Assembly: GCA_963457665.1 (NCBI GenBank)
Contig: OY735213.1
Location: 51,171,285 to 51,235,284, forward strand
Origin: Thysanoteuthis rhombus
Lineage: Eukaryota > Mollusca > Cephalopoda > Oegopsida > Thysanoteuthidae
Length of the DNA: 64,000 nucleotides
Direction: 5' to 3'
The notes below the pieces were generated by a model. That model saw nothing but the letters and a program-made list of their open reading frames with translations, was not told the origin of the DNA and searched no databases. A program made the position numbers and the translations under genes. Shown in pieces: positions 9,770 to 57,628 of this stretch. Numbering within the stretch: position 1 is the stretch's first letter; every line of letters starts with the position of its first letter.

Positions 9770-9869
9770 TTAATTGTCTTCGTTGGAAGCCAACAAACAT
9801 TTCTTGGCACATTGTCTTGTCAGGGGATGATGGGTGCAAATACTGCATTTCCTTATCAACTCATTGCGA
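9770..9869 (-). CDS. Coding exon 10 (C-terminal Cys cluster and stop)
   Basis: The acceptor TTTCATCCAG is followed by T completing Asn293 and 32 codons ending TAA at 9772-9770. It encodes RNELIRKCSICTHHPLTRQC, then AKKCLLASNEDN. The four cysteines and adjacent HH could bind one zinc ion as a small knuckle; this is inferred from spacing only. Confidence 0.85.

Positions 9870-57628: not shown

Follow-up and report, generated by a model that had tools for sequence, protein, structure and literature searches.

An eight-exon gene spread over 48 kb of the Thysanoteuthis rhombus genome and its relation to a small eukaryotic protein family

The window analysed is a 64,000 bp stretch of contig OY735213.1 of the Thysanoteuthis rhombus genome assembly GCA_963457665.1 (positions 51,171,285 to 51,235,284, forward strand). 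In keeping with a squid as the source, a squid rhodopsin sequence (checked against PDB 4ww3/2z73) matches this genome at 94% over its longest stretch, residues 98-329, and at 81% and 88% over two other stretches on the same contig; octopus rhodopsins are clearly more distant. With high confidence, its minus strand carries a protein-coding gene with an eight-exon structure that belongs to a small family of eukaryotic proteins. The gene runs from an ATG at 57628 to a TAA ending at 9770, a span of 47,859 bp, and the eight coding exons total 858 bp, encoding 285 residues and a stop in a frame that is open throughout. An earlier note on this DNA, made from the letters alone, had placed a single spliced mollusc or cephalopod gene between exactly these limits, with the strand unnamed and about 2% of the span coding; the value is 1.8% (858 of 47,859 bp), and two full-length relatives match the eight-exon product. 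The ten exons and 325 codons given there have to be revised, as the relatives fit a chain of eight coding exons with 285 codons before the stop.

The exons were chosen by simple splice scores of minus-strand stretches lying between AG and GT, together with open frames, before any relative was known, and the relatives thus form an independent test of the chain. The 285-residue product was searched against 5.8 billion proteins, with candidates preselected on shared words and length, and two of the 532 candidates matched at E <= 1. Both are unnamed database proteins with the source tag 'lgn', presumably from other species than that of the window, and both have the same domain, STFGK motif and cysteine tail as the window protein. 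P0001 (287 amino acids) aligns to 100% of the query with 80% of the residues identical (E 1.2e-145), and P0002 (283 amino acids) to 97% of it with 76% identical (E 5.3e-137). Their source contigs of 1,802 and 1,196 bases, compared with a gene span of 47,859 bp here, are too short for the introns and are therefore spliced (or retrocopied) sequences. The P0001 alignment runs through every one of the seven junctions and has two gaps, each of a single residue. P0002 backs the last six junctions; it starts with MLKL where the window protein has MASQAVIK, and this different start precedes the first junction. The window was searched for a start of the P0002 type (MLKL with AG|GT), and none turned up. 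In the three-way alignment the lengths differ only by three single-residue gaps, all of them away from the junctions, and by four residues close to the P0002 start.

All exons are on the minus strand. Coding exon 1 (57603..57628, 26 bp) encodes MASQAVIK and the first two bases of S9 and has a weak donor, AG|GTTCGT, of 5.8 bits; 9 of its 9 residues are identical in P0001 and 2 of 9 in P0002, which has the other start. Exon 2 (34532..34650, 119 bp, splice scores 10.4/8.7) is acidic and Ser-rich, with 33 of 39 residues identical in P0001 and 34 of 39 in P0002, and exon 3 (23737..23835, 99 bp, splice scores 8.9/6.7) is a basic linker with 20 of 33 and 21 of 33 identical residues, respectively. The conserved domain begins in exon 4 (19392..19456, 65 bp; ISMDDFLYKQNEFRLWLREK), where the identities are 22/22 and 21/22, and has its core in exon 5 (15990..16085, 96 bp; YFKEFVKLWNKRKL), where they are 31/32 in both relatives. 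Exon 6 (13194..13448, 255 bp) holds the end of the domain followed by a Ser/Pro-rich part with STFGK (65/85 and 56/85). Exon 7 (12128..12225, 98 bp) has the basic run REPKKRKTN at its end (26/33 and 24/33), and exon 8 (9770..9869, 100 bp), with the TAA stop, encodes the cysteine tail C-x2-C-x8-C-x3-C found in the motif scan (24/32 in both). The seven introns measure, in order, 22,952, 10,696, 4,280, 3,306, 2,541, 968 and 2,258 bp, and all seven have GT/AG ends. The G+C content is 42% for the exons taken together (0.35-0.54 by exon) versus 29-34% for the introns. The range of exon sizes in the earlier note, 26 to 255 bp, agrees with this chain, and the 255-bp exon is indeed the only one inside an open reading frame (ORF; 13170-13505) of at least 90 codons, although it is number 6 and not number 8 as claimed there.

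The domain is more conserved than the rest of the protein. Over residues 84-140, P0001 matches the window protein at 56 of 57 positions and P0002 at 55 of 57, compared with 80 and 76% overall, a pattern that would be expected under selection on the protein. A search of the genome (2.73 Gb, 514 contigs) with P0001 gave six matches at E <= 0.001, all of them at window exons 2, 4, 5, 6, 7 and 8; exons 1 and 3 were absent from the matches at this threshold. The match at exon 2 continues into the intron on either side and hence includes one intronic TAA. A pseudogene in this species, with intact counterparts in the relatives, is very improbable given a frame open over all eight exons, GT/AG at the seven introns and an almost unchanged domain; a second copy was also not found in the genome with the P0001 query.

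The fit of the reading phases is not what supports the gene. In-phase, stop-free chains were counted with exon 1 and the last exon fixed and eight internal exons between them, allowing exon lengths of 20-260 bp and a minimum intron length of 60 bp. As controls, the sequence was shuffled three times within 200-base blocks, and the opposite strand was read at matching offsets. When both splice sites had to score 5 or more, there were 5.67e9 ten-exon chains on the real strand, against 6.2e6, 7.7e5 and 1.35e7 in the shuffles and 6.1e6 on the opposite strand. The strictest threshold (7/6) gave 5.4e4 chains on the real strand, 58, 83 and 2 in the shuffles and 0 on the opposite strand, and the loosest (3/3) gave 1.4e14, 1.0-1.8e13 and 3.5e13, respectively. 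Open stretches with good splice boundaries are thus more frequent on the real strand than in the controls, but a phase-consistent chain by itself carries almost no information; the homology does. The claim that nine consecutive phase matches would be improbable in noise is contradicted by these counts. The huge numbers of compatible chains in real and shuffled sequence would suit a reading in which the exon chain is a chance string of open fragments in repeat DNA, with no gene at all, but the chosen chain matches two database proteins end to end and the homology of the domain extends to starfish and fungi, so that this reading is already refuted by the matches and its probability is negligible.

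The same lesson applies to the two additional exons of the earlier model. Because the 255-bp exon is number 6 rather than 8, two false exons had seemingly been placed upstream of it, together 117 or 120 bp long. The first five introns contain 81 phase-neutral cassettes with scores of at least 3, and 123 pairs of such cassettes have the right total length to fit as the false pair. These cassettes could also be taken as a sign that the earlier model of ten exons and 325 codons describes the actual gene or a genuine isoform, which would have two cassette exons missing from P0001 and P0002. Phase-neutral cassettes are, however, expected by chance in DNA this long, as the whole-chain shuffles show, and neither relative has an insertion at any junction; P0001 is continuous across all of them and therefore leaves no room for two more exons with 39-40 more codons. 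A ten-exon form is accordingly considered unlikely. Two further candidate exons, 26877-26809 and 21038-21013, were plausible by eye and were dropped because their phases are incompatible with the chain; the relatives are also without them. The eight-exon gene shows cleanly that a gene can be recovered from raw DNA even when less than 2% of it is coding. It is also a warning that in a 48-kb search space a full set of fitting phases is no evidence, since the right ends were found while two false exons were seemingly included.

The window protein has one small conserved domain at residues ~84-140, which in the structure model has two main helices and short helical turns. The predicted local distance difference test score (pLDDT) is 76-92 in the domain block and mostly below 50 in the remainder. 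A profile search, the kind of check proposed in the earlier note, matched relatives in starfish and fungi: three starfish proteins (E 2e-9 to 5e-8), a chytrid protein (E 1e-6) and, at E 0.0025 to 0.064, five more proteins of fungi. An hhalign comparison of the window domain with eight of the profile-search proteins gave a probability of 98.7, E 1.9e-16 and 47% identity over 62 columns, and it is not independent, as the same eight proteins came from the profile search. All 15 related proteins retrieved carry the precomputed database label PF27660. Judged by sequence, the window protein is a divergent member of this small eukaryotic family. Pfam scans of translated pieces and of the spliced protein gave sub-threshold matches only (TFA2_E-tether, E 0.15-0.22; TACI-CRD2, E 0.36-0.44), the NCBIfam scan gave no match, and no match in the PDB sequence searches fell below E 0.4.

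The labelled deuterostome proteins (P0003-P0005 and P0012-P0015) come from three starfish, a brittle star, two urchins and a hemichordate, and share with the window protein the domain pattern EFRxWL ... FVKxWN ... YY as well as STFGK. The fungal proteins (P0006-P0011, chytrid and Mortierella-type) share the domain, and those of Mortierella type have a long Ser/Arg-rich N-terminus. The deuterostome protein P0003, used as a query, had no match in the squid genome at E up to 1; the window's own gene was equally missed, and the search therefore says nothing on a paralogue of the ancestral type. The family is little studied, and the records retrieved are uncharacterised, hypothetical or named by composition. 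No animal function was seen in these records.

Outside the domain, the members differ in motif content. STFGK, at residue 192 of the window protein and thus downstream of the domain, is present in all three squid-type proteins (the window protein, P0001 and P0002) and in all seven deuterostome proteins (10/10 animal), versus none of the six fungal proteins, and on sequence grounds it ties the squid-type to the deuterostome proteins. A C-terminal P(K/R)ATGxxA block is found in six of seven deuterostome and four of six fungal proteins (P0010 being a partial sequence) and in none of the three squid-type proteins; it is common rather than defining, because one deuterostome is also without it. The cysteine tail C-x2-C-x8-C-x3-C is restricted to the squid-type proteins (3/3), with 0/13 among the others, including 0/7 in deuterostomes. 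It is conceivable, though doubtful, that squid (perhaps all coleoid) members have swapped the common C-terminal block for a cysteine cluster and that the protein is a lineage-specific nuclear regulator, possibly zinc-binding, which may have escaped public annotation owing to its very small and widely spaced exons. No named cephalopod protein was among the results of the protein and profile searches, in which candidates were limited by shared words and length.

The protein is Ser- and Lys-rich. It begins with an acidic, Ser-rich segment, carries a basic run close to its end and is predicted to be disordered except in the domain, and from these features it is probably nuclear; REPKKRKTN is, by eye, a possible nuclear localisation signal. 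The helical domain could be a docking module flanked by disordered arms, which may be regulated by phosphorylation, and the C-terminal cysteine tail of the squid-type proteins is a putative zinc-binding site. The domain may resemble a motif of plant SCI1; no protein named SCI1 was among the protein and profile search results. Plant SCI1 is described as a nucleolar regulator of proliferation that is degraded in mitosis and binds a homologue of CDK11 (PMC9013909, PMC8012853, PMC11720235), namely NtCDKG;2 (PMC9013909, PMC11720235). By analogy with the reports on plant SCI1, the squid protein would most likely be an adaptor or inhibitor of a kinase pathway in RNA processing or the cell cycle, a role that can be suggested only tentatively.

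A CpG-rich stretch at 55000..58000 covers the 5' end of the gene and is probably its promoter region. The CpG observed/expected ratio of 0.96 at 56001-58000 is the highest of 32 two-kb bins, against 0.41 for the window. Downstream of the stop codon, the first AATAAA on the minus strand in the pattern scan (8881..8886) is a candidate poly(A) signal; it is the first of 14 AATAAA/ATTAAA matches in 3.5 kb, and hexamers of this kind occur frequently in AT-rich DNA. The predicted RNA fold around the start codon does not stand out (z -0.11), and the Rfam scan of the window gave no match at gathering scores.

The gene is longer than octopus averages, yet it is not strange for a cephalopod, where long introns are common. 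In Table 3 of PMC10700109, O. vulgaris has a median gene length of 20,288 bp, a median intron length of 2,467 bp and 8.42 exons per transcript, and the corresponding values for O. sinensis are 4,403 bp, 1,520 bp and 5.83; the authors note that their own gene models are longer and attribute this chiefly to where the transcript data came from. For O. minor, PMC6279123 gives a mean gene of 23.6 kb and a mean intron of 5.4 kb. The surprise implied in the earlier note is unwarranted in view of the one octopus annotation with long genes (PMC10700109).

The description of the region as a repeat field is fair for the three stretches that were probed. With 40 candidates scored per stretch, 40000-40600, 37600-37850 and 61100-61376 each have sequence at no fewer than 39 other places; two are intronic and one lies outside the gene. 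The repeat at 37600-37850, with 76-85% identity to its copies, overlaps a coding-looking ORF on the plus strand (37547-37834), which was rejected for that reason. An ORF at 45219-45500 on the minus strand resembles by eye the end of a long interspersed nuclear element reverse transcriptase (YGAETW) and had no match in the Pfam scan. Both strands are open for ~126-129 codons at 47884-48280, also with no match in the Pfam scan of translation pieces.

The 61100-61376 repeat was found at 39 or more other places among 40 scored of 7,394 first-look candidates, with 77-87% identity. It contains the only transfer RNA (tRNA) call of the window, a tRNA-Asn at 61150-61232, and is most likely a tRNA-derived element resembling a short interspersed nuclear element, with inverted partial copies. 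Just outside it, an open frame at 61423-61737 on the plus strand has a coding-like composition by eye. The repeat matches scored for 61100-61376 stop short of this frame, which could represent an exon of an adjacent gene.
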